Virus record (IMG/VR): IMGVR_UViG_3300043436_000972
Coordinates: 1-46,965 of that record
Length of the DNA stretch: 46,965 bases
Reading direction: 5' to 3' (one strand)
From: a virus
Shown one piece after another: positions 1-11,422 of this stretch. Position 1 is the stretch's first letter. Each line of letters opens with the position of its first letter. Position numbers and translations under genes: made by a program. Under the pieces are notes generated by a model. That model ran no database searches, was not told the DNA's origin, and saw only the letters and a program-made list of their open reading frames with translations.

Positions 1-73
1 TCTGCTTGCCAAGGTTGCTGTGCTTTTCAACATCGTTGAAAGCTTCGTCTTCTTCGGGTGTCCAGTCAGTCAT
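1..73 (-). CDS. Partial small phage protein (N-terminus only)
   Basis: The ATG at 71-73 opens a frame read leftward off the window edge, so only about 24 residues are visible, beginning MTDWTPEEDEAF. They are acidic and charged. The start overlaps the stop of the preceding gene as ATGA, the same translational coupling seen at many junctions in this block. Function cannot be assigned from this fragment. Confidence 0.6.
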   Translation of the reverse strand, partial: MTDWTPEEDEAFNDVEKHSNLGKQ

Positions 74-288
74 GCTTGCCCCCTTGCTCTGATTTCATTT
101 GCCACTCCAGTTCTAGGCATCCCATTGCTGTTCCAGTTCTCAGCAATGTCGGCACACGCCTCACGCTCCTGTTCAATGGCTAAGTTGACCAAAAGAACCA
201 AGTGCGGGGTTGATACAGTCCACGTTGTGTAGTGCGTGTTCTCTGCCACAACTTTGTGCAGCGCCTCTAAAATTTCATCTTGTGTCAT
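70..288 (-). CDS. Small conserved phage protein, unknown function
   Basis: This encodes 72 residues with a clear ribosome binding site (GAAGGAG) upstream of the ATG. The C-terminal half carries an E-REACADIAEN segment followed by a terminal IRARGQ. That pattern recurs in small hypothetical proteins of many phages of Proteobacteria, but no biochemical role is known to me. It is probably a soluble helical protein. It is coupled by ATGA to the truncated gene on its left. Confidence 0.65.
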   Translation of the reverse strand: MTQDEILEALHKVVAENTHYTTWTVSTPHLVLLVNLAIEQEREACADIAENWNSNGMPRTGVANEIRARGQA

Positions 289-298
289 CGCTTCTCCT

Positions 299-595
299 TC
301 AGTTAAAGTGTTCTTTTGGTGGTGCGTCTAGCAAGTTTAGAAAGCCGAAAAAATCGTTTGCCGCCAGCATGAGCTGCGACGCCTCCATCTCGTTACAGTT
401 TAGGGTAACGACTCCTGCTATTTGGTCTTCAGCGCGGCCAACGATGACCACGCCTTGTGCTTTGCCCTCGCCATAGCACATCACTAGTTTGTGGATCAGT
501 AGCTTGAAGTGGGCTTGCTCTTCGTCTGACATGGCCGTCACCCTGCTGTGTAGCTCCGCTTCAGACATTGAGCCGTCAAAGTCCTTGTATTTCAT
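299..595 (-). CDS. Hypothetical protein, 98 aa
   Basis: A 98-residue soluble protein starting MKYKDFDGSMSEAE. It has an acidic helical N-terminus, a central hydrophobic strand-rich stretch (GVVIVGRAEDQIAGVVTL) and a C-terminal helix ending in a Phe-rich FFGFLNLL segment. The start has a GGAG motif upstream and overlaps the end of the nuclease gene by 20 bp. I do not recognise the family. Position and compactness suggest an accessory early protein. Confidence 0.65.
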   Translation of the reverse strand: MKYKDFDGSMSEAELHSRVTAMSDEEQAHFKLLIHKLVMCYGEGKAQGVVIVGRAEDQIAGVVTLNCNEMEASQLMLAANDFFGFLNLLDAPPKEHFN

Positions 596-887
596 ATCGT
601 TTGAGCTCCAGTAGTGTTTTCAGCTCATCAAGGTTGTGCTCACGGGCAATGAACACAATACCCCATGCATTGCGGATGGCTTCGAGTTCTCTGTCTTGAA
701 GAGCTGTGGTTGTGCCCTTGCCGGCCTTGCATTCGATGGCAATGAATTGTCCGTCCATGCAGCCAATGATGTCAGGTATACCCGCTCGGCCAAAACCATT
801 AGCGGGGGGCATGAAGTGGTAGATTTTGAGTTCATCAAGTAGTTTCCGTACGTTCGCTTTTACTTTTGATTCAGGTGTCGAAGCCAT
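576..887 (-). CDS. VRR-NUC domain nuclease
   Basis: This is a small stand-alone PD-(D/E)XK nuclease of the VRR-NUC type, a family whose phage members are single-domain DNA nucleases (structure-selective resolvase-like activity is known for relatives). From the start MASTPESK (104 aa), the core is GIPD (Asp about 39), then IECK (Glu about 52 and Lys about 54), and a Gln at about 64 in the following helix. A longer start at 911 is possible, but 887 has a G-rich ribosome binding site and matches the usual N-terminus of the family. It overlaps the upstream gene by 17 bp. A role in early DNA metabolism or host DNA degradation is inferred. Confidence 0.88.
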   Translation of the reverse strand: MASTPESKVKANVRKLLDELKIYHFMPPANGFGRAGIPDIIGCMDGQFIAIECKAGKGTTTALQDRELEAIRNAWGIVFIAREHNLDELKTLLELKRYEIQGL

Positions 888-1131
888 CGTAACCCCCATT
901 CGCTTCAACATACCTTGTCAGGTTAACCTCTGGATGCCCAAAAGTTTTGCCGTCGTTGGCAATCTCTCGGTTGAGCAACTCAAACGCTTTCAGTATGGTG
1001 CGCATGCCGTACAGATCAACTGTCTTCTGCACATCAGGCAACACCGCCGCGCTCGGGTCTGAAGCCAGTATGAGGTACAAGAGCCGCAACGCGACCCAGT
1101 CTTTCTTCTTGAGTTTGTCTACTGAGGTCAT
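871..1131 (-). CDS. Hypothetical protein, 86 aa
   Basis: An 86-residue, mostly helical protein beginning MTSVDKLKKKDWVALRLL. A hydrophobic segment lies near residues 15-30, but it is too short and mixed to be a confident membrane span. The C-terminus is polar and Gly/Asp-rich. The start overlaps the preceding stop (ATGA at 1128-1131), so translation is coupled, and the end overlaps the nuclease gene. The family is not recognised. Confidence 0.65.
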   Translation of the reverse strand: MTSVDKLKKKDWVALRLLYLILASDPSAAVLPDVQKTVDLYGMRTILKAFELLNREIANDGKTFGHPEVNLTRYVEANGGYDGFDT

Positions 1132-1355
1132 TTGTTTTTCGCTCCATGCATTTCATATAGCGTTGCCATGTATGCAACCATCTTGTCAAGCGGGTAGCCG
1201 TTGTGGTACGCAAGCATGCACAGGTAGCTCATGAGCGCAGATATGCCGATGTCTACTTTCTGCGTGCCCATTGCGGTTTTGAGAATCTCTACTGCAGCTT
1301 CCACTTGATCGCGTTTGTTGTTGAGTGCGCGTGTTTCTTCAATGTCTTTGGTCAT
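1128..1355 (-). CDS. Hypothetical protein, 75 aa
   Basis: A 75-residue protein beginning MTKDIEETRALNNKRD. A charged N-terminal helix is followed by a more hydrophobic helix around residues 38-70 (ISALMSYLCMLAYHNGYPL). It may be a small helical bundle; a membrane association cannot be excluded but is not obvious. An AGGAGAAATG ribosome binding arrangement precedes the start, one base after the stop of the DUF3310 gene. Function unknown. Confidence 0.65.
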   Translation of the reverse strand: MTKDIEETRALNNKRDQVEAAVEILKTAMGTQKVDIGISALMSYLCMLAYHNGYPLDKMVAYMATLYEMHGAKNK

Positions 1356-1356
1356 G

Positions 1357-1638
1357 TCATTTCTCCTGTGTTTCTATTAATTTGTCTAAGTAGTGACGCG
1401 CCTTCTTCAGGTCATCGACACCGCCCTTGTCCTTCCAGCGGGACACGTACTTTACTATGTTGCCTTCAAGATAGCCAAGGTTGTTGCCCACGATGTAGTC
1501 CCATGGTTGTATGGCCTTGCCCTTGTAGTGAGTGCCCGCTACTTGCACATCGTTGGCTGTAAGCGCTTGTACATGCTTGCGCGTGGTCTCGTGAAACAGA
1601 TCAAGCTGGTCGCTTGTCGGTATGGGTGGCTTAGTCAT
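1357..1638 (-). CDS. DUF3310 family protein
   Basis: A 93-residue protein whose second half shows the DUF3310 signature: AGTHYKGKAIQPWDYI, then NLGYLEGNIVKYVSRW and DDLKKARHYLDKLIE. DUF3310 is widespread in phages, often fused to or near nucleotide metabolism genes, and is sometimes annotated as nucleotide-kinase-like without firm biochemistry. The first 30 residues are a variable extension (MTKPPIPTSDQLDLF). The start overlaps the upstream gene by 8 bp. The family call is solid; a molecular role cannot be stated. Confidence 0.88.
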   Translation of the reverse strand: MTKPPIPTSDQLDLFHETTRKHVQALTANDVQVAGTHYKGKAIQPWDYIVGNNLGYLEGNIVKYVSRWKDKGGVDDLKKARHYLDKLIETQEK

Positions 1639-1852
1639 TCTCGTCTCTCCTTCTGTTTAAAAAGGCGGCATCGGCTGGGTTGCGTATCCGCTCAAGCTCG
1701 TTGTCGTAGTACTTCTTTGGCATGGGCGCTTTCTTGTCAAGCAACTCACGCAACCAATCGAGTCCGCCAAGCTGTTTAAAAATTATCCACTGCTTGTCAC
1801 TTAAACGTACGTATCGTACCTTTAGGGGGGCGGGGGGCTTTGGTCTTGGCAT
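1631..1852 (-). CDS. Hypothetical protein with RYVRLSDKQW motif, 73 aa
   Basis: A 73-residue basic protein starting MPRPKPPAPLKVRYVRLSD. The arrangement of a short proline-rich leader and then a motif around QWIIFKQLGG and DWLRELL resembles small ribbon-helix-helix-like or RNA/DNA-binding phage proteins, but this is only a resemblance. The start has an excellent ribosome binding site (GAAGGAG, 9 nt spacing). It lies 56 bp inside the preceding gene in another frame, so both frames are used there. Confidence 0.65.
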   Translation of the reverse strand: MPRPKPPAPLKVRYVRLSDKQWIIFKQLGGLDWLRELLDKKAPMPKKYYDNELERIRNPADAAFLNRRRDEND

Positions 1853-2057
1853 CTGTTAAAACTCCTTCGTGTTTGTTTGGCTGTCGTTCTTTGGCTCGCG
1901 TGAACGTGCCGAACTGTTTATAGCCTAGGTCTTCTTTGCTTTTGAGTTGATTGCTTGGGTTACGCGCACGAAAGTATTGGTCGGTTGCAAAAATACTCGG
2001 CCTGTCTACTTGTGCAAGTTCTTCCCAAGGGTTGAGTGTTTTGGGTTTGTCGGTCAT
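1797..2057 (-). CDS. Hypothetical protein, 86 aa
   Basis: An 86-residue, polar, basic protein with few hydrophobic residues (MTDKPKTLNPWEELAQ at the start, KAPRPPKGTIRTF at the end), probably partly disordered. It has one of the strongest ribosome binding sites in the block (AAAGGAGGT, 5 nt before ATG) and overlaps the preceding stop. Its last 56 bp are also the start of the next gene in another frame. The strong initiation site argues that it is translated. Function unknown. Confidence 0.65.
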   Translation of the reverse strand: MTDKPKTLNPWEELAQVDRPSIFATDQYFRARNPSNQLKSKEDLGYKQFGTFTRAKERQPNKHEGVLTDAKTKAPRPPKGTIRTFK

Positions 2058-2440
2058 ACAACCTCCTTTAATTGCGTAGCCAGCGATTCACACTCATCAA
2101 TGCAGAAGTCCAGTGATCTAATGACATCACCTTCGAACCGCAACGACAACGCGCTTATGCTTTTGTACTCGGGGGCCATCAACTCAGGGTCACGCGCATC
2201 ACCAAGGTGTGCGCAGTCATAGCCGAACCACCACAAGTCGGCAGCTTCAACAGGGTATTTGCCGTTGCCCCCTGCAAAGGTCAGGCCGCCATGTACATCA
2301 ACGTCAGCATCATCATACGCAACGCCGTAAAGCTTATGCCCTACCGGTATTGCCACGTACCCACAGCGGTGTCCCATGGGGGTAGCGCACACCACAGCGC
2401 GGTAGCCTGCCTTTGTTACCCAATCTTTTTCTGTAGTCAT
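2054..2440 (-). CDS. Conserved phage protein with GHRCGYV and HGGLT motifs, 128 aa
   Basis: A 128-residue protein with recognisable conserved blocks: WVTKAGYRAVV, then GHRCGYVAIP, HGGLTFAG, and WWFGYDCAHLGD. This set recurs in many phage and prophage hypothetical proteins. The Cys, His and Asp residues in these blocks could bind metal or form an active site, but the function is not established. It is coupled at both ends: ATGA with the glutaredoxin gene upstream and an overlap with the downstream gene. Confidence 0.75.
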   Translation of the reverse strand: MTTEKDWVTKAGYRAVVCATPMGHRCGYVAIPVGHKLYGVAYDDADVDVHGGLTFAGGNGKYPVEAADLWWFGYDCAHLGDARDPELMAPEYKSISALSLRFEGDVIRSLDFCIDECESLATQLKEVV

Positions 2441-2688
2441 AGCGGCACACTCCCAAGTTGTTTAAGCGCGGCTTGTAGTCCTGCCAAGCCACCCACGCGT
2501 TGGTCGTTGAAGAATATCTGCGGCATCTGACGCGCATCAGGGAACTCTTTGAGCAGGTTGCCAAGGCGGTCGCCCACCTCGATGTCCACCTCATTGAATG
2601 GTAAGTTGAGCGAACCCAGTACGAGCTTGGCTGTTATGCAGTTGGGGCAGTTTGCCTTGGTATAAATTGTGATGTTAATTTCTTTCAT
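2437..2688 (-). CDS. Glutaredoxin-like thiol oxidoreductase
   Basis: An 83-residue complete glutaredoxin fold protein. Strand INITIYTKAN leads to the redox motif CPNC (Cys14 and Cys17), followed by the helix, then EVDIE, the cis-Pro loop MPQIFF (Pro56) and a VGGLAGL glutathione/substrate-binding turn. Phage glutaredoxins of this size usually reduce ribonucleotide reductase during infection. No reductase gene is in the window, so its partner may be host-encoded or lie outside. It overlaps both neighbours by ATGA junctions and is surely part of the same transcript. Confidence 0.9.
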   Translation of the reverse strand: MKEINITIYTKANCPNCITAKLVLGSLNLPFNEVDIEVGDRLGNLLKEFPDARQMPQIFFNDQRVGGLAGLQAALKQLGSVPL

Positions 2689-2894
2689 GCTCCCCTCGCT
2701 TTCAGCATTGCGTCTGCCATCTTGTATGCGTTCTTTGCGTATTCATCAACCCACGATACGTGGCTTACTTCCTTGCTAACAATTGCTTGCATAGCCTTAG
2801 CCGCAAAGTAGTCACGCAGGGTCATGCCTTGACTGTTTGCAATTGAAATTGCGGTAGTGACTTTATCGCCTTGTGGAAACGCTAGTATGTCCAT
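2685..2894 (-). CDS. Conserved phage protein with MTLRDYFAAKAM motif, 69 aa
   Basis: A small helical protein with the block GMTLRDYFAAKAMQA and a C-terminal AYKMADAMLKAR. This pair of motifs is very common in hypothetical proteins of phages and prophages of Proteobacteria; the function is unknown. I place the start at the ATG at 2894, because GGAGG lies 5 nt upstream. An in-frame ATG at 2906 would overlap the previous gene but has no comparable site. It ends in an ATGA overlap with the glutaredoxin gene. Confidence 0.75.
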   Translation of the reverse strand: MDILAFPQGDKVTTAISIANSQGMTLRDYFAAKAMQAIVSKEVSHVSWVDEYAKNAYKMADAMLKARGA

Positions 2895-2895
2895 C

Positions 2896-3549
2896 TTAAC
2901 CTCCAAACATCTGCTTCAAGTGCACATACAACTCACGTGCCTGATACACAGTCATGTTGCCAATAATGTCTTCGGGTGTCTTTGTACGTACAAGGGTCAC
3001 CATGCGTTTGGGCGCAACCTCAACCCCACTCATAGCGTACGCTGCAGCATCAAGCGCATCTTGGCTAGGCATAGGCGTAGGCACAGGCGTAGCTTCTAGC
3101 TTGGCTTTCAACAGCGCACCGATACCTGTCGCAGGCTTCTTCTGTGTCTTGGCTTTCTTTTTCCGCTTGTAGTTCACGTTCTTGATAGGTGCGTACTCAT
3201 CCACATCTGCGTACCACAGGCCGTTGGTTTCGTGAACCATGTAGCTTCTGCGCATCTGCGCTATCAATGATGACACTGACCCTTTGGCAAAGCCCTTGTG
3301 CCCAAGCGCTTCGACGATCTCCAGACGTGTGGAGCCGGGGTTGTTCTTGATGTAGCTGAAGGTTTCGCGTGAGACGTTGTTTGTGATTTTGTGTTGATTA
3401 ATCATGGCTGGTTTTTGGTTTGAAGTTGAGGGAGAAGAAGAGGTTGACACTGGTTGGGCAGAGGGAGGAGGGGGTGCCACCTCGTCATCATCCCAAGCTT
3501 GCAGAGTCTTAGTTAGCGCAGAGCGCAGGGCAGTTTGAATGTCAGGCAT
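2896..3549 (-). CDS. Putative winged-helix DNA-binding protein
   Basis: A 217-residue protein. Residues about 1-50 are a Pro/Ser-rich linker-like region. Residues about 55-120 resemble a winged-helix domain: SYIKNNPGSTRLEIVEALG, then a recognition-helix-like segment KGSVSSLIAQMRR and a wing ending NGLWYADVDEY. A very basic KRKKKAKTQKK tract follows at about 130-140, and a C-terminal helical region ends in VYQARELYVHLKQMF. This layout suggests a phage regulator or nucleic-acid-binding protein. The assignment is by pattern only. Confidence 0.6.
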   Translation of the reverse strand: MPDIQTALRSALTKTLQAWDDDEVAPPPPSAQPVSTSSSPSTSNQKPAMINQHKITNNVSRETFSYIKNNPGSTRLEIVEALGHKGFAKGSVSSLIAQMRRSYMVHETNGLWYADVDEYAPIKNVNYKRKKKAKTQKKPATGIGALLKAKLEATPVPTPMPSQDALDAAAYAMSGVEVAPKRMVTLVRTKTPEDIIGNMTVYQARELYVHLKQMFGG

Positions 3550-3759
3550 TTAGATTCCTCCTGTTAGTAGCATGACAATAAAAATTGCGGCGAGAGCCGC
3601 TACGGAAAGCACGCAAGTGCGTGTATCTTCTGACCATCCCTGCTTGTCGCCTAACAGGATAGATTGCACCCAAGTCTCCTCGGGCGTAGGTATGGGGGTA
3701 GGGGGTGTGTAGAGCAAGCCAATCTTGACCTTGCCCGTATCGTAAGGTGTGTGTTTCAT
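3550..3759 (-). CDS. Small single-span membrane protein, 69 aa
   Basis: A 69-residue protein with a polar, Pro/Thr-rich N-terminus (PPTPIPTPEE) and one hydrophobic segment at about residues 49-68 (LSVAALAAIFIVMLLTGG) that ends at the C-terminus. It is therefore a tail-anchored-like inner membrane protein. The ribosome binding site is CAAGGAG upstream of ATG. It is the first gene after a good sigma70-like leftward promoter at 3784-3813. Function unknown; small early phage membrane proteins often modulate host envelope functions. Confidence 0.65.
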   Translation of the reverse strand: MKHTPYDTGKVKIGLLYTPPTPIPTPEETWVQSILLGDKQGWSEDTRTCVLSVAALAAIFIVMLLTGGI

Positions 3760-3783
3760 TTAGTTATTTCTCCTTGGGGGTAC

Positions 3784-3813
3784 ATTATTTGTCTAGGGTT
3801 GGACATAAGTCAA
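3784..3813 (-). promoter_or_regulatory. Putative sigma70-like leftward promoter
   Basis: On the minus strand, TTGACT (3813-3808) is followed after 18 nt by AATAAT (3789-3784), matching the -35 and -10 consensus at 5 of 6 positions each. It lies between the 30-aa membrane ORF and the gene starting at 3759, and would drive the genes leftward from there. The assignment is by pattern only. Confidence 0.5.
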
Positions 3814-3902
3814 TACCCTCGCCAATAAAAAATATCGGCAATAAGTACAATTACCGCCAACAAAAGTACTATTCTTTCGAACTTTTCCCAGTTAGTCATC
3901 AT
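3810..3902 (-). CDS. Tiny membrane protein, 30 aa
   Basis: A 30-codon ORF, MMTNWEKFERIV at the start, followed by a strongly hydrophobic segment (LLLAVIVLIADIFYW) and a short RGY tail. It is a single-span small membrane protein. GAAGGAG lies 6 nt upstream of the ATG at 3902, and the start overlaps the end of the upstream gene by 11 bp, fitting the compact style of the block. The ORF is short, so chance cannot be fully ruled out, but the good initiation site and the clear membrane segment support it. Confidence 0.55.
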   Translation of the reverse strand: MMTNWEKFERIVLLLAVIVLIADIFYWRGY

Positions 3903-4074
3903 TGTTTTCTCCTTCGGTTGTAGGTGCAACGCCAAGTGTGCGCATGACCTCGAGCAACAAGACATGAATGTCCTCAAGGTGCGTGACTCGGTACTCGGCA
4001 GGGTTCATAAGGTAGTCCCGCAGGTCTGCCTCGATACAGCGCAGGTGTAGCGCTGTGGTGTCTGATACTTTCAT
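3892..4074 (-). CDS. Hypothetical protein, 60 aa
   Basis: A 60-residue acidic helical protein (MKVSDTTALHLRCIEADLRDYL at the start, GENNDD at the end). AAGGAGAAATCAA precedes the ATG, a ribosome binding context repeated almost unchanged at 4553, 4430 and 8654. The start overlaps the upstream stop (ATGA). No family recognised. Confidence 0.6.
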   Translation of the reverse strand: MKVSDTTALHLRCIEADLRDYLMNPAEYRVTHLEDIHVLLLEVMRTLGVAPTTEGENNDD

Positions 4075-4553
4075 TTGATTTCTCCTTGTAAAAATTTCTT
4101 AGCGTCTTTCCACATAAGCCATGCGTCTTCCACGCCTGACCACCAGTGATAGCTGTCTTTGTTTATGCCCCCATCGACCACGTATTCAAGGAACATCAGC
4201 ACTTCGTCTCGTGATGCAGAGGCAACATTCCGAAGGTATGCTTCCAAGAAGGCATTCTCTTCTGGCGTAGGCTCATAGACAATCTTTGTGTCATACACCT
4301 CACCATCCCCCATGCGTGCCTTGCTGATGTCAAACTCGTAGAGCGCCCTGTTCTCAGCATCGGCACGGCTGTCGGCTTCGATCACTACTGTCTGCCAGTA
4401 GGACATGACTATTTCCATTTTGTATTTCATTTGCTTTCTCCTTTGGTTTTTAATAAAAACATAGCGTGCATCAGGGCGTGTAGCAAACCATCTGCTTAGC
4501 CCTCCGTGGTCATCCTGCATCAGCGCAGGTGGATCCCACCCTGTCTTTCTCAT
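4071..4553 (-). CDS. Hypothetical protein with a second in-frame start (160 or 119 aa)
   Basis: The 160-codon frame begins at 4553 in an ATGA overlap with the upstream gene. A second in-frame ATG at 4430 carries the same ribosome binding context (AAAGGAGAAAGCAAATG), giving a 119-residue form. The shorter form starts like typical phage proteins of this kind (MKYKMEIVMSYWQTVVIEAD), with a strand-rich N-terminal part, an LYEFDISKARMGDGE block and a Trp-rich C-terminus (YHWWSGVEDAWLMW). The first 41 residues look unrelated. Either two forms are made or two former genes have merged. Function unknown. Confidence 0.65.
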   Translation of the reverse strand: MRKTGWDPPALMQDDHGGLSRWFATRPDARYVFIKNQRRKQMKYKMEIVMSYWQTVVIEADSRADAENRALYEFDISKARMGDGEVYDTKIVYEPTPEENAFLEAYLRNVASASRDEVLMFLEYVVDGGINKDSYHWWSGVEDAWLMWKDAKKFLQGEIK

Positions 4554-4816
4554 TTGCTTTCTCCTTTGATACTGTCTTGCCGTTGTTTAAACCATGCTTT
4601 GTATTCAGACAGCATGTATAACTTCTTAGTCATCTGACTATGTGATCTGGCTATAAGCACAGCTTTAGGTGATGGGCACACCCTACTACTCCTGCTAATA
4701 AGGCTCTTCAGCACCTTGTGCTCAACGCCAAGCCTGTCGGCTATCTCTTCCAATGTGTACAGCGGCTCCTTTTTGTCGTTGGGTATTCGGTCAAGCTTAG
4801 AAGTAAAAAGTTTCAT
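4550..4816 (-). CDS. Small helix-turn-helix-like protein, 88 aa
   Basis: An 88-residue basic protein. Residues about 19-45 (LYTLEEIADRLGVEHKVLKS) match the start of a MerR/excisionase-like or helix-turn-helix domain, followed by a basic region (SRSSRVCPSPKAVLIARS) and a C-terminal helix with AWFKQRQDS. It could be a small DNA-binding regulator. AGGAGG in the terminator-proximal leader precedes the ATG. It is the first gene after the terminator at 4826-4853 and starts a run of ATGA-coupled genes. Confidence 0.5.
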   Translation of the reverse strand: MKLFTSKLDRIPNDKKEPLYTLEEIADRLGVEHKVLKSLISRSSRVCPSPKAVLIARSHSQMTKKLYMLSEYKAWFKQRQDSIKGESK

Positions 4817-4825
4817 ACATCCTCC

Positions 4826-4853
4826 TTAAAAATGTGGGGGGCAAGCCCCCCAC
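4826..4853 (-). terminator. Rho-independent terminator after the amidotransferase gene
   Basis: Read leftward, an 8-bp perfect stem GTGGGGGG/CCCCCCAC (4834-4841 with 4846-4853) with a 4-nt loop is followed by ATTTTT. It lies 7 bp past the end of the gene at 4860, and its T-tract runs into the ribosome binding site of the next gene. It may therefore attenuate rather than fully stop transcription. Confidence 0.75.
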
Positions 4854-4859
4854 TACAAA

Positions 4860-5969
4860 TCAAGTCAACAGTGCAGGCAAGGTTGGCTTGAATGACACAG
4901 GCTTGCGCACATCCCATTGCAGGTAGTAACACACGACCTCAGCGATAGTACTGACCGCACCATACGACTTGGTAGCCATGCTGATAAGACCAGACGCATC
5001 GCCCTCCATCAGCATATCGTAGATGCCCTGCTCGGCAACGCACAAGTCGTCACGATGTGTGTACGTGAGTGGCTCAGGCTGGAACAAGTGGAGCACAGTA
5101 GTCAGCGTGTACGCAGGCATCTGGTCAAGCCATATCTCCATCGTCTCAACGTCAGCCTCGGTCAGTGCAACAGCAAGGTCTTCAGGTGTTGGCTGAACGA
5201 AGCCATCCTCGTCATCAGGAAAGTCGTACGCTGTCTCGTCGTAGTTGGCGCTGTGTGCGCTGATACCACGGGGCTTGACGTTGAAGCTAGCGTTGTAGTC
5301 ATACATCTCGTCGTACTCGTCATCCATGTAGCCGCCGTATGCACTGGTGTACTTGTACGACTTGAGTGCAGTCGTGCTCTTGTAGCTTGGGATCAGGCGT
5401 GATGGTGTCCACGCATAGGTATTGCTGAACCACAAGTCATCGTGCTCGATACCCTGATCGAAGTTGACGTGCTGCATACGACCCTCGCCATTCATGAACA
5501 CGAAGCGGTTGTTGCCGATGAACTCCTCGAGCATAGCAACGAAGCCTGCGTCATACACAAGGTCAGGGGCAGAGGACACAGCGCTGTGCAAGTAGTCCTT
5601 GATGAAGTGCCATGTGTCAGACTTGGACGTGTCAGCGGCATTGCCTGTATGCAGTACGCCGTTGTGCATCATGGCGATGAAGCCAGGGATCACATCGTAT
5701 GGATGGCAGTTGAGCATATCGGTCTTGCCGTGTGTAGTCCAGCGGAAGTGGATAGCAATCTCACGATCGTCTTGAGGCAAGCGCTGAATGAATGCAGAAG
5801 CATCGCCGAGATTCTTGGGCAAGGACTTGGTGACCTTGAGCCCCTTGGCTGTGCCGTACATGAACCCAATGCCGTCAGGGTTGGATGTGAAGATGTCGCT
5901 GAGTAACCCGTGCGTGTCGAGCAGGGTTGAACGAACTTTGGAAGACTGACCTGTAATGATTAAACACAT
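4860..5969 (-). CDS. Class II glutamine amidotransferase-like protein (Ntn hydrolase)
   Basis: A 369-residue protein with the N-terminal nucleophile fold of class II glutamine amidotransferases, which release ammonia from glutamine using Cys2. Visible landmarks are MCLIITG (Cys2), NPDGIGFMY (30-38), HFRWTTHG (74-81, with the Arg-Trp-x-Thr-His of GlmS-type enzymes), MHNG (101-104, oxyanion Asn-Gly) and SDT with Asp118. The domain ends near residue 200. The rest is an Asp/Tyr-rich linker and a helical C-terminal domain of unknown role. No sugar-isomerase or asparagine-synthetase domain is attached, so the ammonia or glutamyl acceptor must involve another protein, most likely the adjacent amidoligase-like protein. 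Confidence 0.85.
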   Translation of the reverse strand: MCLIITGQSSKVRSTLLDTHGLLSDIFTSNPDGIGFMYGTAKGLKVTKSLPKNLGDASAFIQRLPQDDREIAIHFRWTTHGKTDMLNCHPYDVIPGFIAMMHNGVLHTGNAADTSKSDTWHFIKDYLHSAVSSAPDLVYDAGFVAMLEEFIGNNRFVFMNGEGRMQHVNFDQGIEHDDLWFSNTYAWTPSRLIPSYKSTTALKSYKYTSAYGGYMDDEYDEMYDYNASFNVKPRGISAHSANYDETAYDFPDDEDGFVQPTPEDLAVALTEADVETMEIWLDQMPAYTLTTVLHLFQPEPLTYTHRDDLCVAEQGIYDMLMEGDASGLISMATKSYGAVSTIAEVVCYYLQWDVRKPVSFKPTLPALLT

Positions 5970-5983
5970 AATAAACTCCTTGA

Positions 5984-6013
5984 GGTAAAAAAGAATGGGG
6001 ACAGGTTGTCCCC
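5984..6013 (-). terminator. Hairpin terminator between amidoligase and amidotransferase genes
   Basis: GGGGACA/TGTCCCC stem (5997-6003 with 6007-6013, loop GGT), followed on the minus strand by ATTCTTTTTT. This is the copy of the six-member hairpin family with the best T-tract. It lies 17 bp after the amidoligase stop and no promoter is evident before the next gene, so it probably sets the ratio of the two proteins rather than separating the genes. Confidence 0.7.
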
Positions 6014-6029
6014 GATGGTTGTTGTTGAA

Positions 6030-8099
6030 TTAAACGGAAGCATTGCCATCAACATCGGCAGGCACAGGGCTCTGACCCTGAATCAATGAGTTGAAGTCGT
6101 CGTCTTGCAGACGCCACACATCGTTGTCACGCACGTAGATCACATCCTCGTCACCGATCTGCTGATCGTTGCCGCTGTACGGGAACACACACAACTGCAA
6201 GCCGATCACCCTGAAGTATGTGAAGTACAGCCCGTGTCGGGTAGCGTAGGCACGTATACCAGCGCCATCCTCATGCGCTATCTCCATCCGATACTCGTGG
6301 TCACACCCGTGAGGGCGTCGGGTTGTAAAGGCAACAACAGGGGGCACAGTGTCAGTGCAAGTAACCTCGGCAGGGGCAGAGGGTTGCTTAGATGCACCAT
6401 GCACAGCACGCACGCCATACCACTTGACTAGCGCAGGGTACTGACCTGCCACAGTCTTGAGCCACTTGACGAACGATGTGCCGTTGAGATCACGCCACGA
6501 TGCGACACGGCAGAACATGACAGACGCATGAGTGAACTCGATCTGTGCAAGCAGACGTTCCTTCTTGAGCGAAGCACGGAAGATGCGAAGCTCGACAGTG
6601 TTGTACCTGCCGTTGTAGCTGTTGTCCATGCTAAGACCCAAGCGTATAGCCTCACGGCTACCGAGATTGCACAGGTTGACCATGCGATAGCGCTCACCCG
6701 ACTTGCCCTTGACAGCCTGCTTGGGGTTGACAAGGATGGACTGGTGCTCAGCGGCGCAGTAGCTACGGGCTTGGTCATCGACAGATGGATGGCGACCTGC
6801 AATCTTGCGAATGAAGTCGACATTGCCATTGCTGTTGATGAACATCAAGAACTTGCCAAGCGTCATCTGAGTGAACGCACGAGAGTCAATGTGTACGTGC
6901 ATACCGCACTTGCCTGTGTTCCATGCACGATAGGCTGGGTCAATGTCCCAAGTCTTGAACTTCTCGATGTGCGTGGCAAGACCATGCGGTGAAGTCACGA
7001 CCTCGAAGCCATTGGATGGAAGCGAGCCGTCACTCTTGATGATGCAGTATGAGGAACCGAGACGGCTACGCACAGACTCAGCGGCTGACTCGCTGTAGTC
7101 ATCACCCGAAGTCATCTCAAGCTCGATGCCCATCGTGAACTCACCGAAGTGAGACGACCTGATGCCTGACTCATTGCCAATAACATCGAGCACATTGGTT
7201 GAGTACGACATGATCGGTTGGTTGCGATCTTCATCATCGTCATCATCTTCGCCATCACGATCATACGAGTAGTACGCATCACGAGACTCAGAGTAGTAGC
7301 AGTCATCACGAGGCCAGTACTCGTTCTCATCCTCGCAGAACACAGCGTCATCATCGAAGCACGAGTCACACCATGTGTCGTTACGCACATCGTGCGTGTT
7401 CTCATCGCTTTCGTAGTGACCGCAGTCACAGTGCACAATGCCAAGACCGAAGTCCTCGAGAGCACAGAACGCGCTGTTGATATGCGTATCGAAGTCGTGA
7501 TAGCGATTGTCAAGCTCGTAGAACGCCTCACGCAGTGCATCGGAGTCGGCTGACGGATCATCTGCCTTGGCACGAGCAACCAAGTGACCGAACTCACGGA
7601 ACGCATTGCGTGCGGCAAGGAGTGTAGACGGAAGGTAGTAGTACCCGCCCTTGAACCTAGCGTGTGGCGAGATGGTTGCCACATTGCCTGTCTGCTTGGC
7701 TATGTACTTATCAACGATGACCTCGACACGCTGATTGATAAGACGGCGATCAACTGGGTGGATACGCGCATCTGAAGCACTGGCAGGCCGAAGCACAGCA
7801 CGCATCATCTGGTGGATATCGTAGCGGTCACTGGCGTACAGAAGCGCATCGGGAAACGACAGCGTCTCGACTGCATGAACAGGGCTCATGCGATAGTTAC
7901 TGCCATGAAACCAGATACCAAACTGAGCGTTATTGATGAGAGTGATAGGGTCAACACCACTGTCGGCACGCATCACATCAGTCATAACACGACGCCGACT
8001 GGCGTTGTACAAAGCGTACTTGTTGCTGAACGACACAAGCAGCATACCTGTGGTGCGGTCAACAGAATCAACCACAACGAACTTTGTAAATGTAAACAT
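6030..8099 (-). CDS. Amidoligase-like protein (COOH-NH2 ligase superfamily) with zinc-ribbon-like insert
   Basis: A 689-residue protein. Residues about 1-215 are a domain I do not recognise. Residues 224-267 hold a Cys cluster (HCDCGHY, then CDSC, then further Cys) suggesting a zinc-binding module. A run of Asp/Glu follows (about 284-291). Residues about 319-530 match the amidoligase_2 pattern: GIELEM (324-329), KSDGSL (355-360), FEVVTSP, CGMHVHID (398-405), YRMVNLCNL (471-479) and VELRIFR (502-508). These acidic, His and Arg residues correspond to the metal and ATP-binding core of glutamine-synthetase-like ligases that form amide bonds. The C-terminal 150 residues look like a small beta-rich domain. 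Its neighbour is a class II amidotransferase-fold protein. The substrate is unknown; the call rests on motifs. Confidence 0.8.
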   Translation of the reverse strand: MFTFTKFVVVDSVDRTTGMLLVSFSNKYALYNASRRRVMTDVMRADSGVDPITLINNAQFGIWFHGSNYRMSPVHAVETLSFPDALLYASDRYDIHQMMRAVLRPASASDARIHPVDRRLINQRVEVIVDKYIAKQTGNVATISPHARFKGGYYYLPSTLLAARNAFREFGHLVARAKADDPSADSDALREAFYELDNRYHDFDTHINSAFCALEDFGLGIVHCDCGHYESDENTHDVRNDTWCDSCFDDDAVFCEDENEYWPRDDCYYSESRDAYYSYDRDGEDDDDDEDRNQPIMSYSTNVLDVIGNESGIRSSHFGEFTMGIELEMTSGDDYSESAAESVRSRLGSSYCIIKSDGSLPSNGFEVVTSPHGLATHIEKFKTWDIDPAYRAWNTGKCGMHVHIDSRAFTQMTLGKFLMFINSNGNVDFIRKIAGRHPSVDDQARSYCAAEHQSILVNPKQAVKGKSGERYRMVNLCNLGSREAIRLGLSMDNSYNGRYNTVELRIFRASLKKERLLAQIEFTHASVMFCRVASWRDLNGTSFVKWLKTVAGQYPALVKWYGVRAVHGASKQPSAPAEVTCTDTVPPVVAFTTRRPHGCDHEYRMEIAHEDGAGIRAYATRHGLYFTYFRVIGLQLCVFPYSGNDQQIGDEDVIYVRDNDVWRLQDDDFNSLIQGQSPVPADVDGNASV

Positions 8100-8117
8100 A
8101 TACTTCTCCTTGAGTTA

Positions 8118-8155
8118 TAAAAAAATAAATACACATCGGGGACATGGTGTCCCCG
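8118..8155 (-). terminator. Hairpin terminator upstream of the amidoligase gene
   Basis: CGGGGACA/TGTCCCCG stem (8137-8144 with 8148-8155, loop TGG) followed leftward by GATGTGTATTTATTTTTTT. It is a member of the six-copy hairpin family. It lies between the gene ending at 8189 and the amidoligase start at 8099, in what would be the amidoligase leader. Confidence 0.6.
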
Positions 8156-8188
8156 TTGAACTAACACACTAACGAACACGCCTGTTGC

Positions 8189-8428
8189 TCAGGCGAGGGC
8201 TACCTCCTCTTCACTAATTACATCGAACGAATACACCTCGAAGGTGTGGTGCTCACCCACGATCGGATCACCAGAGGTGAACACAAAGAACAAATCGTCA
8301 TGCTTGCGTAACACCTCATCACGCATCGAGTCTGATAACTCAGCGGGCAGGACAATACAGTCTGCTTTGAACGCATTGTTGAACGGCTGTTTGTATGTGC
8401 CGAACACACGGATTTTTACTACTCTCAT
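8189..8428 (-). CDS. Hypothetical protein, 79 aa
   Basis: Starting at the ATG at 8428 (CAGGAG upstream, 1 bp after the previous stop), this encodes 79 residues beginning MRVVKIRVFGTYKQPF. It is strand-rich with an acidic tail (ISEEEVALA). A longer frame to 8479 lacks an initiation signal and overlaps the neighbour. The first residues resemble a compact beta protein. Family unknown. It precedes the amidoligase gene and is likely cotranscribed with it. Confidence 0.6.
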   Translation of the reverse strand: MRVVKIRVFGTYKQPFNNAFKADCIVLPAELSDSMRDEVLRKHDDLFFVFTSGDPIVGEHHTFEVYSFDVISEEEVALA

Positions 8429-8429
8429 T

Positions 8430-8654
8430 TCACTTACTCCTGTTGTTGATTGCTTCGAGCGCCTCGTCAGCACACGCACGCCATGCGGCCTCGCTGATGA
8501 AGCTTTGGTTAGACCAAGGCGGTGAGACTTTGGTTTGTTCTGAGTACTTGGATATCGCCTCGATGATGAACGCCTGCATGAGAGCGCCTTGCTGTGAGTG
8601 CGACATCAGATCGTTGATGAGTTGCACGTTTGTTTTGTGTTTGACTTTGGTCAT
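8430..8654 (-). CDS. Conserved small phage protein (KHKTNVQLINDLM motif), 74 aa
   Basis: A 74-residue helical protein starting MTKVKHKTNVQLINDLM, with QGALMQAFIIEAI next and ACADEALEAIN near the end. This arrangement is frequent among small hypothetical proteins of phages of Proteobacteria, where it often ends in an AW-x-ACA-E motif. The role is unknown. The initiation context (AAGGAGAAATCAAATG) is the same repeated cassette found at 4074. Confidence 0.72.
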   Translation of the reverse strand: MTKVKHKTNVQLINDLMSHSQQGALMQAFIIEAISKYSEQTKVSPPWSNQSFISEAAWRACADEALEAINNRSK

Positions 8655-8725
8655 TTGATTTCTCCTTGAATTTACCTAGGCAGTATGAGGATGGTGCGCG
8701 GCATTGCCCAAGCGCCGACACCAAT

Positions 8726-8742
8726 GGGGACAAACTGTCCCC
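8726..8742. repeat. GGGGACA-N3-TGTCCCC hairpin, copy 3
   Basis: A perfect 17-bp dyad with spacer AAC. Unlike the copies at 5997 and 8138, it is not followed by a T-tract on either strand, so a simple terminator role is doubtful here. It lies between the genes ending at 8795 and starting at 8654. Confidence 0.7.
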
Positions 8743-8748
8743 GTTGCA

Positions 8749-8770
8749 GGGAATTCCCATGGGAATTCCC
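8749..8770. repeat. 22-bp perfect palindrome made of two GGGAATTCCC units
   Basis: Two copies of the 10-bp palindrome GGGAATTCCC are separated by AT, so the whole 22 bp is also a perfect palindrome centred on CATG. It lies 6 bp from the hairpin at 8726-8742 and upstream of the gene starting at 8654. It is well placed to be an operator for a dimeric or tetrameric regulator. Confidence 0.65.
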
Positions 8771-8794
8771 CCGAAACAAAGCTGACACTGGTCG

Positions 8795-9481
8795 TCAGAG
8801 CACACCTGCCCATGTAGCAGGGATGTGTTCGTTGGTTGACAACCTCACAATAATCTTCATTGCCTCCTTCATTTTGGTTAGTGTGTTTGTCTGCGCCTCT
8901 GTTGGGTGCAGGGTGTTCTTTCTTTCGAGCGTCTCGATTTCTTTTTGCGTGCGCCTGAGCAGGCGTTCCTTTGCCTTGGCGTTCTGCTCGGGTGTGGATA
9001 GGCGTTGGAAGGGCACCTTTCGCTTGGCTCGTAGCTTTGGGGGTAGTTGTTCGAACATCAACGCTATGCGCTCTTTAATCTTCTCGGGAATCCAATCAGT
9101 CCAATGCTCGCCGTTGTTGGGCAAGGCTTTCTCAAGCGCCAGTTGTATGGGCGTAGCCTCAAGCGCTTTCATTGGCTTGGCAAAGCGCGTCAATAATGTC
9201 TCCATCACCAAGATGTACGCATCGAACGCAAGCACACGATCCTCGTCATCAAGGTCATATGCACGCCCAACCTTGGCATTATTGAGTTCGTAGCGTAGCG
9301 GTTTGAGTAGCTTGTCCCACTCAGCCTTGCGCTGAGTTCGCGTTATCTTGTCGACACGCTGTGATTCTTTGAGTTGGGCTACTTCATTTTTTATTCTGAC
9401 CATATCTGTGGGGTGTATGCGCTCCTTCAATAATCTTTGATGGAGGGCGTTGGGTGTGAGTGCAATGTAGGATTTGTGCAT
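8795..9481 (-). CDS. Hypothetical helical protein, about 229 aa, start uncertain
   Basis: From the ATG at 9481 this gives a highly charged, helical protein (MHKSYIALTPNALHQRLL at the start; repeated Lys/Arg/Glu stretches; a C-terminal coiled-coil-like region rich in KAKERLLRRTQKEIETLERK). There is no good ribosome binding site at 9481. The open frame continues to 9844, with a GAAGG before an ATG there, but the added 120 residues come from an AT-rich repeat region and look non-coding. Possibly a nucleic-acid-binding or replication-associated protein, given its place next to the repeat region; this is inference. Confidence 0.55.
   Translation of the reverse strand: MHKSYIALTPNALHQRLLKERIHPTDMVRIKNEVAQLKESQRVDKITRTQRKAEWDKLLKPLRYELNNAKVGRAYDLDDEDRVLAFDAYILVMETLLTRFAKPMKALEATPIQLALEKALPNNGEHWTDWIPEKIKERIALMFEQLPPKLRAKRKVPFQRLSTPEQNAKAKERLLRRTQKEIETLERKNTLHPTEAQTNTLTKMKEAMKIIVRLSTNEHIPATWAGVL
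9424..9436 (+). repeat. CCTTCAATAATCT repeat, copy inside the gene at 8795-9481
   Basis: An exact copy of the 13-bp motif also present (either strand) at 9483-9495, 9657-9669 and 9852-9864. Here it lies inside coding sequence. Confidence 0.7.
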
Positions 9482-9482
9482 G

Positions 9483-9549
9483 AGATTATTGAAGGTTAGG
9501 GGTTGAGTGAAGTACAGATGGCGAAGACTAAAAAAATCCGCCACTTGTC
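9483..9549 (+). repeat. 67-bp inverted repeat, left arm
   Basis: It begins AGATTATTGAAGGT and continues, after 16 dissimilar bases, with TACAGATGGCG-AGACTAAAAA and then GCCACTT. Both conserved blocks are shared with the right arm at equal spacing. Confidence 0.75.
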
Positions 9550-9656
9550 GTGCCATGCGGGAGACCGCATGAACACTAGTATACCGCGCAAATGTGGCAA
9601 GGTATCTATCTTTTTTCCAGACGACTAACGCCAAAGTAAAAAAGAGAAAGCTTGCA

Positions 9657-9669
9657 AGATTATTGAAGG
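9657..9669 (+). repeat. AGATTATTGAAGG, central copy
   Basis: An exact 13-bp match to the first block of the 67-bp arms, in the same orientation as the left arm. The second block is absent here. Confidence 0.65.
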
Positions 9670-9797
9670 TGGCTCGCTCAGAAAAATATACACACCCCCC
9701 CAGAAATACTTCTATATATATACATATATATAAAAAGATAGATAGATAGCCAGAAATTTCGGGAACGCCCATATTTACTGGGCGTTTGGGGTGGTTT

Positions 9798-9864
9798 GAG
9801 AAGTGGCAAAACTTTTTAGTCTCCGCCATCTGTATTTTAGGCATATGCTGACCTTCAATAATCT
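9798..9864 (-). repeat. 67-bp inverted repeat, right arm
   Basis: The reverse complement reads AGATTATTGAAGGT, 16 dissimilar bases, then TACAGATGGCG-AGACTAAAAA and GCCACTT, matching the left arm at the same spacing. The arms enclose about 248 bp. Confidence 0.75.
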
Positions 9865-9879
9865 CAGATTAAAGAGAAT

Positions 9880-9896
9880 GGGGACAAATTGTCCCC
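9880..9896. repeat. GGGGACA-N3-TGTCCCC hairpin, copy 4
   Basis: A perfect dyad with spacer AAT, 6 bp downstream of the gene ending at 9902. The leftward sequence after it (ATTCTCTTTAATC) is only weakly T-rich. Confidence 0.7.
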
Positions 9897-9901
9897 GTTT
9901 A

Positions 9902-10111
9902 TTAGAACAAATCAAGTTGATGCATCCCGTTCTTCCATTGATCGTATGCACGCTGTGTCTCGAAGACCATGCCACGCAGATGCAATGCGCCCTTGCGGAA
10001 CACATGAACCTGATGCTGCGAGCCGTAGCTGATGGTTTGCATATGGTAGTCACGCCCACGGATGGTGATGATGCCTACTTCTTTGGTGATGGGTTGGATG
10101 AGGTTACGCAT
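9902..10111 (-). CDS. Hypothetical protein, 69 aa
   Basis: Starting at the ATG at 10111 (AGGAG 7 nt upstream, overlapping the preceding stop as TAATG), this gives 69 residues beginning MRNLIQPITKEVGIITIRG. The pattern is strand-rich, then QHQVHVFRKGALHLRGMVF and a short acidic-aromatic end (GMHQLDLF). A longer frame up to 10258 is His-rich, has no start signal and overlaps the small membrane gene, so I reject it. Function unknown. Confidence 0.62.
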   Translation of the reverse strand: MRNLIQPITKEVGIITIRGRDYHMQTISYGSQHQVHVFRKGALHLRGMVFETQRAYDQWKNGMHQLDLF

Positions 10112-10290
10112 TACTGTTCTCCTGTGATGATGAGCATGAGTTGAGTGCCGAACAAGAACGATCCGAAAAGCGTGAGCAATGCCCACAATGGGGCAACGCC
10201 GTACTCGTTCATGCCCCAAAAGCCCACGATGATGGATGTGACAAGGGTGATAGCGCACACGATGTGCGAGATTACTGTGAAGGGTTTCAT
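10111..10290 (-). CDS. Small two-span membrane protein, 59 aa
   Basis: A 59-residue ORF with two hydrophobic segments: VISHIVCAITLVTSIIVGF (about 6-24) and APLWALLTLFGSFLFG (about 33-48), joined by a short polar turn. AAGGAGAACCCC precedes the ATG. The stop overlaps the next start (TAATG). The hairpin-like topology suits a small inner membrane protein of phage early regions. It could be holin-like, but is far from the lysis genes and probably early, so I do not call it a holin. Confidence 0.62.
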   Translation of the reverse strand: MKPFTVISHIVCAITLVTSIIVGFWGMNEYGVAPLWALLTLFGSFLFGTQLMLIITGEQ

Positions 10291-10300
10291 GGGGTTCTCC

Positions 10301-10495
10301 TTAGATTGAGTTGATGTGTTGGGCGAAGCATTGCTCTACATAGCGGTAGTCCTCAGCGCTGAGCGTGAGTGAGAGTGAGTGAAGCCACTCGATGGCTTCT
10401 TCGTAGATTTCCATGGGTGCAAGCCACAGGTTTAAGACCATGAGTATGGTCAGGTCAGCATCTTGTGTGAATTGTGTGGGGGAGGGTAAGTTCAT
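10301..10495 (-). CDS. Hypothetical protein, 64 aa
   Basis: A 64-residue acidic helical protein (MNLPSPTQFTQDADLTILM at the start, then APMEIYEEAIEWLHSLS and DYRYVEQCFAQHI). TAGGAG lies upstream of the ATG. The three genes from 10495 to 9902 have short gaps and are probably one operon. Family not recognised. Confidence 0.6.
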   Translation of the reverse strand: MNLPSPTQFTQDADLTILMVLNLWLAPMEIYEEAIEWLHSLSLTLSAEDYRYVEQCFAQHINSI

Positions 10496-10528
10496 GATTA
10501 ACTCCTAGGTTGGACAAAGAATGAAACA

Positions 10529-10582
10529 GCGGGCAAGCCTCACGCTTGCACCGCCATGAAAGAATGGGGACAACTTGTCCCC
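10529..10582. repeat. Paired hairpins, including GGGGACA-N3-TGTCCCC copy 5
   Basis: Two stems lie in the gap after the gene ending at 10590. One is GCGG-GCAAGC/GCTTGC-A-CCGC (10529-10554). The other is a family hairpin, GGGGACA/TGTCCCC (10566-10582, loop ACT), followed leftward by ATTCTTTC. Together they could form a leftward terminator of moderate strength. Confidence 0.6.
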
Positions 10583-10589
10583 GTTGAGA

Positions 10590-11015
10590 TTATTGAAAAG
10601 AAACAGAAGCACGCAACTGAGCAATGAACTCGTTGAACTGAGCCTGAGTCAAGCCTGAGTCAATAATCTTCTTGGTTGTACCGCTAACCAAACCACGGGG
10701 CAACACGACAGGCTCGCTTGCACCTGATGATGCAGGCAATTGCTTGCCCTTGATGTCACTCAATAATCTCGTCACAGCACGCTTGGCGTTCTCGTAGTTT
10801 GCATGGGTGTTGTCCATAACCTTTGTACCCTTTGCCTTGCCCTTGCCGTCAACGAGTGGCACAGCGTACTTAGGCTTGCTCGCCACAATGGGCAGGATCA
10901 CAACACGCACTTGCTCGTGCGTCATGTCCTTAGCATCCTTGCGTGCCTTGATGATGCACTCGTCATACATTGCGGCGTGATCGAGTGCGAGAGAGATGTG
11001 AGTAGATAAAGCCAT
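10590..11015 (-). CDS. First leftward gene, hypothetical protein, 141 aa
   Basis: Starting at the ATG at 11015 (CAAGGAG upstream), this gives 141 residues beginning MALSTHISLALDHAAMYDE. It has a helical N-terminus, a middle block DMTHEQVRVVILPIVASKPKY and a basic GKGKAKG, then NYENAKRAVTRLLSDIKG and a C-terminal helix with LTQAQFNEFIAQLRA. A frame to 11231 is not supported by a start signal. It is the first gene of the leftward block, immediately after the control region, so it may be strongly and early expressed. Basic and helical, it might bind nucleic acid; that is inference. Confidence 0.65.
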   Translation of the reverse strand: MALSTHISLALDHAAMYDECIIKARKDAKDMTHEQVRVVILPIVASKPKYAVPLVDGKGKAKGTKVMDNTHANYENAKRAVTRLLSDIKGKQLPASSGASEPVVLPRGLVSGTTKKIIDSGLTQAQFNEFIAQLRASVSFQ

Positions 11016-11044
11016 TTTGATTCTCCTTGAGAAAGATAAAGAAC

Positions 11045-11061
11045 GGGGACACCTTGTCCCC
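11045..11061. repeat. GGGGACA-N3-TGTCCCC hairpin, copy 6
   Basis: A perfect dyad with spacer CCT. It lies 30 bp upstream of the first leftward gene, so it would sit in that gene's leader; no gene ends before it. This argues that the family is not only a set of terminators. Confidence 0.7.
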
Positions 11062-11157
11062 AATCGGCTAGAGAACCATTCCCTAACCGATACCTCTAGT
11101 TTACGAAGGGGTGCAAAATGGGGGTGTTTCGGGGGTTCGGTTTTGGCGTGGTGTTGA

Positions 11158-11180
11158 CCCCACCCATCCCCCAGCCCCCC
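11158..11180 (-). other. Canonical G-quadruplex motif
   Basis: On the minus strand, four G-runs of 6, 5, 3 and 4 are separated by loops of 2, 2 and 1 nt within 23 nt, satisfying the usual four-tract rule with very short loops. Confidence 0.6.
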
Positions 11181-11249
11181 TAATTGGGGTCGCCGATAAT
11201 CCTGCGTATAAACACTGTTTCGCACCCGCAAATCAAATTTTTAAAATTC

Positions 11250-11277
11250 TTGACCCCCACCCCCTCAACTAGATACT
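11250..11277 (+). promoter_or_regulatory. Putative rightward promoter for the packaging/structural block
   Basis: TTGACC (11250-11255) and GATACT (11272-11277), 16 nt apart, resemble a sigma70-type promoter reading toward the terminase genes. The spacing and -10 are slightly off consensus. It is the best candidate in the divergent region. Confidence 0.4.
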
Positions 11278-11301
11278 TAAATTCCCAGACCTGATACTTA
11301 A
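11272..11301 (+). repeat. Paired GATACTTAA direct repeats
   Basis: Two exact 9-bp copies, 11272-11280 and 11293-11301, lie 21 bp apart, about two helical turns. The first overlaps the putative -10 element. Suggestive of an operator. Confidence 0.5.
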
Positions 11302-11362
11302 CACCCCCACCCCACTATAAAAATTTTGAAAGACTCATGTCAAACGTTGGACACGGCACAAT

Positions 11363-11392
11363 AAAAAAGAGCCCCGGGGGTTAGCCGGGGCT
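11363..11392 (-). terminator. Minus-strand terminator in the divergent region
   Basis: AGCCCCGG/CCGGGGCT (11370-11377 with 11385-11392, 7-nt loop) is followed leftward by CTTTTTTATT. It is oriented to stop transcription moving leftward out of the structural block. On the plus strand the same hairpin would sit in the leader of the first rightward gene. Confidence 0.65.
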
Positions 11393-11422
11393 TCAAGGAG
11401 GACTAATCCTCAAGGAGAAGCA

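Follow-up and report, generated by a model that had tools for sequence, protein, structure and literature searches.

A predicted Cys-cluster amidoligase and a glutamine amidotransferase encoded as a near-obligate gene pair in phages

What reaction could be catalyzed by two adjacent virus genes, one encoding an amidoligase and the other a glutamine amidotransferase (GATase), and on what target? The question arose from a single virus record in IMG/VR (IMGVR_UViG_3300043436_000972; 46,965 bases), which in its whole length is referred to below as the window. A first-pass annotation made from the sequence alone had singled out positions 4860-8099 as a pair of amidoligase and class II GATase genes forming a possible amide-making system. 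The coordinates (4860-5969 and 6030-8099, both on the minus strand), lengths and motifs given for the 369- and 689-residue proteins were confirmed, and an amide-forming system is the best reading of the pair. We consider it moderately probable that the two genes encode two subunits of one glutamine-dependent amidoligase. In the order of the minus-strand transcript the amidoligase gene lies upstream and the GATase gene downstream. The features on which the argument depends are as follows; dN/dS is the ratio of nonsynonymous to synonymous substitution rates.

6030-8099, minus strand: predicted amidoligase (Amidoligase_2, PF12224), 689 residues, with an AAGGAG ribosome site before the ATG
7449-8099, minus strand: fast-evolving N-terminal region of the amidoligase, residues 1-217 (29-76% identity; dN/dS, a rough value here, mostly 0.4-0.6)
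7359-7430, minus strand: Cys cluster C224-x-C226...C244-x2-C247 of the amidoligase, a probable zinc-binding module
6405-7139, minus strand: catalytic core of the amidoligase, residues 321-565 (E326-x-E328, D357, E366, H401-x-H403, R436, Y471, N475, E503-x-R505)
4860-5969, minus strand: predicted stand-alone class II GATase (N-terminal nucleophile hydrolase glutaminase), 369 residues, with AAGGAG before the ATG
4863-5186, minus strand: helical C-terminal domain of the GATase, residues about 262-369, of no known family (AlphaFold model; dN/dS 0.15-0.36)

The analysis of the 689-residue protein revealed a match to Pfam Amidoligase_2 with an expect value (E) of 2.8e-7 and 31.1 bits, the curated cut-off being 22, and 41 of 44 amidoligase relatives matched the same family at E<=0.01. 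Residues G324, E326, E328, D357, E366, H401, H403, R436, E503 and R505 were invariant in all 44 sequences, down to about 25% identity; these include every Glu, His and Arg position checked as catalytic (E326, E328, E366, H401, H403, E503 and R505). In close relatives the core was 87-95% identical. The AlphaFold model had a mean predicted local distance difference test score (pLDDT) of 84.9. Its best match among solved structures was YbdK (1r8g, E 7.5e-4), with glutamine synthetases next, and it also matched many phage amidoligases in BFVD. The fold is thus held in common with carboxylate-amine ligases of the YbdK/GshA type. When the two sequences were read side by side, E. coli YbdK presented GIELEM, HVHV and TVEVR in the same order as the metal/ATP-site motifs of the window protein; however, identity was 12% and the profile alignment spanned the GIELEM motif only. 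Taken with the model, these matches make the protein a member of Amidoligase_2 with a glutamate-cysteine-ligase/glutamine-synthetase fold and a predicted ligase activity.

Taken alone, the sequence of the 369-residue protein stayed under the Pfam cut-off (GATase_6, E 0.11). A profile built from 33 GATase relatives matched the glutaminase domain of GlmS (1xff) with E 4.5e-9, and 25 of the 33 family members matched GATase_4 at E<=0.01. The first 190 or so residues of the AlphaFold model mostly had pLDDT above 90, and by Foldseek the predicted structure matched GlmS and EgtC with E of about 1e-6 to 1e-5. Ten residues were invariant in the 33 sequences (C2, R76, T79, H80, H89, N103, G104, S117, D118 and T119), the catalytic Cys2 being the N-terminal nucleophile once Met is removed. 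Residues 196-369 matched no family and no synthase domain follows the glutaminase domain, as had been claimed; the protein is not of the full-length GlmS/PurF/AsnB type, scoring 25 bits with the NCBIfam glmS model against a cut-off of 418. On these profile and structure-model matches, the protein is a stand-alone class II GATase, and by both approaches each of the two proteins came out in the family first named for it. The three outcomes that the first-pass annotation had set as refuting it, namely other folds, lost catalytic positions and separate occurrence of the genes, were each examined, and every result was in its favor.

Linkage of the two genes was analyzed in viral loci from four scans, which were grouped into 102 distinct sequence groups. 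The distant query consisted of seven amidoligases, all taken from paired loci, and matches were ordered by their similarity to the window protein; the linkage described here accordingly holds for the window subfamily only. Conservation in a broad alignment of 17 GATases was nowhere high enough for scanning a collection, and a narrower alignment was used. The GATase gene lies directly 3' of the amidoligase gene in 86 of the 102 groups and precedes it in one (L169); a contig end cuts a further 12, and for three groups flagged as single (L021, L045 and L062) the partner was recovered by tblastn. All assessable viral groups, about 90, therefore pair an amidoligase of the window subfamily with a nearby GATase. 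The intergenic gap has a median of about 35 bases and is usually shorter than 40 nucleotides, and the frames sometimes overlap. Among 80 loci in bacterial genomes a GATase was detected by profile in 74 and on inspection in two more (L222 and L233); L251 has a shortened GATase, in L245 and L252 the sequence stops too soon, and L249 alone has none, so that the GATase is present in 76 of 78 assessable loci. Distance matrices of the two proteins from 56 loci were correlated with a Mantel r of 0.894, the best of 5000 permutations reaching 0.446. The pair also occurs in unrelated phage lineages, namely podovirus ctgrD200, MEP401/402, Acinetobacter phage vB_AciJM_313 and mycobacteriophage Marvin. Overall, the window subfamily is a near-obligate two-gene unit in phages and bacterial mobile elements. 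The open reading frame preceding the GATase gene of Bifidobacterium phage BP677P1 was considered as a possible amidoligase, and the assignment was rejected.

Phage pairs of amidoligase and GATase have already been described in phiEco32, LUZ24, RIO-1 and OM43 phages (PMC10580990, PMC5498523, PMC3890496), and the known carriers also include UFV-P2, tf, RIO-1-like phages and MEP401/402, among others. The pair which the first-pass annotation presented as a notable find is thus real, but it belongs to a known type. What the present analysis adds is the definition of a Cys-cluster subfamily set apart from the LUZ24 and phiEco32 enzymes, its near-obligate two-gene form and the contrast of evolutionary rates along the amidoligase.

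Several of the known systems can be compared directly. Methylophilales phages MEP401 and MEP402 (PMC10580990) and ctgrD200 carry adjacent genes of the same two families in the same order, and MEP402 and ctgrD200, like the window, have neither the cyclotransferase nor the COOH-NH2 ligase; they belong, however, to different lineages, their proteins are shorter and identity to the window proteins is about 25-37% (tblastn, over about half of each protein). In the peptidoglycan-modification cassette of phiEco32, LUZ24, tf and RIO-1 (PMC5498523, PMC3890496) an amidoligase is again followed by a class II GATase and the core motifs are common to both, but the amidoligases, of 367 and 391 residues, have no N-terminal Cys-cluster region, the GATases have 510 and 676 residues, and the cassette adds genes for a gamma-glutamyl cyclotransferase, a COOH-NH2 ligase and a protein whose annotation reads ribosomal protein S6 glutaminyl transferase. 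The gamma-glutamyl cyclotransferase was absent from the window and present in two of 33 related virus records, both cassette control phages being positive; the COOH-NH2 ligase was absent from the window and present in one of 11 related records tested, with both positive controls found. No RimK-type ATP-grasp partner was detected in the window, with a model that is weak on such phages (one control, below cut-off) and on a contig that may be incomplete. One 59,354-base virus record (the contig of L177) carries the COOH-NH2 ligase, the gamma-glutamyl cyclotransferase and a Cys-cluster amidoligase-GATase pair within about 8 kb, which ties the window subfamily to the phiEco32-type cassette. In Marvin (L100), whose host is actinobacterial, the adjacent genes stand in the same order, with a match to the amidoligase profile for gp105 and to the GATase profile for gp106. 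Both are annotated as glutamine amidotransferase domain proteins, which for gp105 is likely to be a misannotation across such phages.

The Cys cluster had correctly been placed before the amidoligase core. Three of its residues (C226, C244, C247) do not vary among the 44 phage amidoligases or in the bacterial frames aligned (101 of 101 and 122 of 122), and position 224 is Cys in most. The amidoligases of LUZ24 and phiEco32 start almost at the core, and the whole Cys-cluster region is absent from them. The cluster probably binds zinc. A sequence search of solved structures with the amidoligase returned chance-level matches only; LIM and FYVE zinc fingers were among these, with E of 0.45-0.93 over the Cys region, which is suggestive only.

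Computed against eight or nine relatives, dN/dS was 0.13-0.22 in the amidoligase core, 0.12-0.28 in the Cys region and 0.32-0.57 at residues 566-689; that of residues 1-217 and 566-689 is two to three times the core value, the larger ratios being rough because synonymous sites are saturated. The catalytic domain of the GATase gave 0.05-0.08. Both genes of the pair are under purifying selection. The pattern is that expected of a constant catalytic machine with changing ends, and would suit a changing macromolecular target.

These observations could be explained by the following mechanism. The enzyme would be made from the leftward early-type block. Its GATase subunit would free ammonia from glutamine through the Cys2 nucleophile, with R76, H89 and D118 and the oxyanion pair N103-G104 holding the glutamine. 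The amidoligase subunit, at its putative ATP/metal site, would activate a carboxylate of the target as an acyl phosphate, and the activated carboxylate would be joined to that ammonia, or to another amine, to give an amide. The N-terminal Cys-cluster region and the variable N- and C-terminal regions would most likely recognize the target, probably a macromolecule such as a host protein or a peptide of peptidoglycan. The function assigned to phage amidoligases in annotations has long been a guess. A two-gene unit whose Cys cluster is invariant and whose ends evolve fast makes a small testable system: both proteins can be co-expressed, a single glutamine-dependent reaction is predicted, and it is clear where target recognition should be sought.

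Several points weigh against a single two-subunit enzyme. Our literature search found no biochemistry for an amidoligase-GATase pair. Class II GATase folds also act as gamma-glutamyl hydrolases, and EgtC is almost as near to the window protein as GlmS. No GATase gene adjoins the more distant amidoligases of Clostridioides phage AR1086-1 and of a Microcoleus phage, and in a phage of Bifidobacterium a GATase is present but no amidoligase was found, indicating that relatives can act alone.

If the two-subunit reading is correct, its target could be peptidoglycan. The D-Glu or diaminopimelate carboxylates of the stem peptide would be amidated or decorated, altering the wall so that superinfection is hindered or lysis is timed. 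MurT and GatD are not homologous to the window proteins as far as known, having a Mur-ligase fold and a class I GATase. They serve as a comparison of working principle: a separate glutaminase and an ATP-dependent ligase encoded by neighbouring genes form a peptidoglycan amidation complex (PMC3267633, PMC5871853), so a separate GATase subunit and a ligase can amidate peptidoglycan. Superinfection exclusion through such a target is a published hypothesis for phage amidoligase cassettes, including those of phiEco32 and RIO-1 (PMC5498523, PMC10580990), and the L177 phage, with the pair and both accessory enzymes, fits it. On the other hand, the window and 31 of 33 related records are without the cyclotransferase, the window and 10 of 11 tested are without the COOH-NH2 ligase, and a near-universal substrate would not obviously need a Cys cluster or a fast-evolving N-terminal region. 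We hold the peptidoglycan target as a tentative proposal.

The bacterial copies bear on a second form of the two-subunit reading, in which the target is a host protein. A serine recombinase or tyrosine integrase was present within the flank examined in 50 of 80 bacterial loci, a raw count with no random-locus baseline. Genes for DUF960 or DUF3846 recur near bacterial pairs (L202-L275, mostly Clostridia genomes), and a Candidimonas pair lies near an antirestriction protein. With such recombinases and integrases as neighbours, the bacterial pairs look borne by mobile elements, like a mobile cargo module. The idea that they are prophage genes was examined with a terminase family in 19 genomes, most of which have a terminase somewhere; proximity could be judged only in the complete Oscillibacter genome, where none lies near the pair. 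The recurrent neighbours are instead recombinases.

Amide modification could inactivate or redirect a host protein, such as RNA polymerase, a part of the ribosome or a protein of a defence, and so serve counter-defence or take-over. A conserved core with divergence of residues 1-217 and 566-689, the early-type block and the apparently mobile bacterial copies, one of them adjoining an antirestriction protein, are all in favor of this. PADLOC models of known or candidate anti-phage defence systems, however, gave no match, and loose structural constraint could also explain the fast evolution of the ends. A host-protein target in general is possible, if doubtful; the changing ends and mobile settings make a protein target in counter-defence about as likely as peptidoglycan. 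A more far-reaching version, which we regard as rather unlikely, is that the Cys-cluster amidoligase and its glutaminase form a dedicated two-protein system, separate from the peptidoglycan cassettes, that phages and mobile elements carry and that uses a rapidly changing recognition region to amidate a macromolecule of the host, perhaps a component of its defence.

The two proteins could instead make and break gamma-glutamyl bonds in a small-molecule pathway, as in ergothioneine synthesis, with an EgtA/YbdK-like amidoligase forming a gamma-glutamyl amide and an EgtC-like GATase hydrolyzing the gamma-glutamyl bond. This is unlikely; it stays in consideration because the GATase structure matches EgtC nearly as well as GlmS. 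The best solved match of the amidoligase model is YbdK, and phiEco32, LUZ24 and the L177 phage have a gamma-glutamyl cyclotransferase along with such genes; but no additional pathway gene is kept throughout the family, and the GATase sequence profile favors GlmS.

It is quite improbable that the pair consists of auxiliary metabolic genes, two independent enzymes aiding nitrogen or amino-acid metabolism, as claimed for a planctomycete phage in which genes for an amidoligase, a GATase and a cyclotransferase occur with a glutathione-synthase-like gene (PMC10945688). The near-obligate pairing, variable ends and mobile-element settings better suit a dedicated two-part enzyme. Class II GATase domains serve dG+ synthesis in phage 9g, and a GATase that provides ammonia for modifying DNA bases, as happens in deoxyarchaeosine phages, is barely credible here, since the known pathways include no Amidoligase_2 enzyme; QueC/dG+ DNA modification was rejected, no QueC being found in the window or in 15 related records by a search positive in 12 of 14 control genomes.

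The pair lies in the left part of the window, where mainly small early-type genes run leftward, among them genes for nuclease/resolvase-like and thioredoxin-domain proteins. Packaging and virion genes (terminase, portal, head and tail fibres) occupy the right part and run rightward. The terminase is nearest to those of phage 023Pt_psg01, Pelagibacter phages HTVC027P and HTVC023P and phage DSL-LC04, at 50-53% identity. The early genes flanking the pair are kept in the window's own phage group, and none is constant among distant relatives. No gene for DNA replication or RNA polymerase was recognized among the early genes scanned at positions 1-11400; contigs of relatives reach 60-68 kb, so the window record may be incomplete and such a module may fall outside it. 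Two further features adjoin the genes of the pair.

5997-6013, no strand assigned: palindrome GGGGACA-GGT-TGTCCCC between the two genes, followed on the minus strand by ATTCTTTTTT
4834-4853, minus strand: terminator-like hairpin directly 3' of the GATase gene

The hairpin noted between the genes by the first-pass annotation is real, but the early block contains six copies of it in all, and it does not mark the pair in particular. Perfect 17-base copies of GGGGACA-N3-TGTCCCC start at window positions 5997, 8138, 8726, 9880, 10566 and 11045, within gaps between genes or leaders of the leftward block. When as many as three mismatches were allowed, seven were found against 1.5 expected, and none of 100 shuffles reached seven; resampled window sequence gave at most two copies of any one arm. 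In related phages the arm is another one, repeated 4-7 times and uniform within each genome: GGGGAAC in L030 and L010, GTGGGAC in L118, GTGGAAC in L122, GGGGTCA in L080 and L146 and GGGGTAG in L152, with GGGGGTA and others as further genome-specific arms. As a feature of the pair itself the hairpin was rejected, because other gaps of the early block also contain it and distant relatives lack it in the pair gap. The palindromes look like repressor operators or stoperator-like sites with co-evolving specificity, or like concerted mRNA hairpins. Similar genome-specific palindromes were seen in more distant pair-carrying phages, with TGATCATA arms in L183 and L190 and CTAACAG arms in L178.

A separate observation was made in the right part of the window, where the tail-fibre genes at 26069-29929 and 32032-33630 have C-terminal matches to the same tail-fibre families, at residues 1006-1283 and 406-528, respectively, as if a common end had been duplicated.

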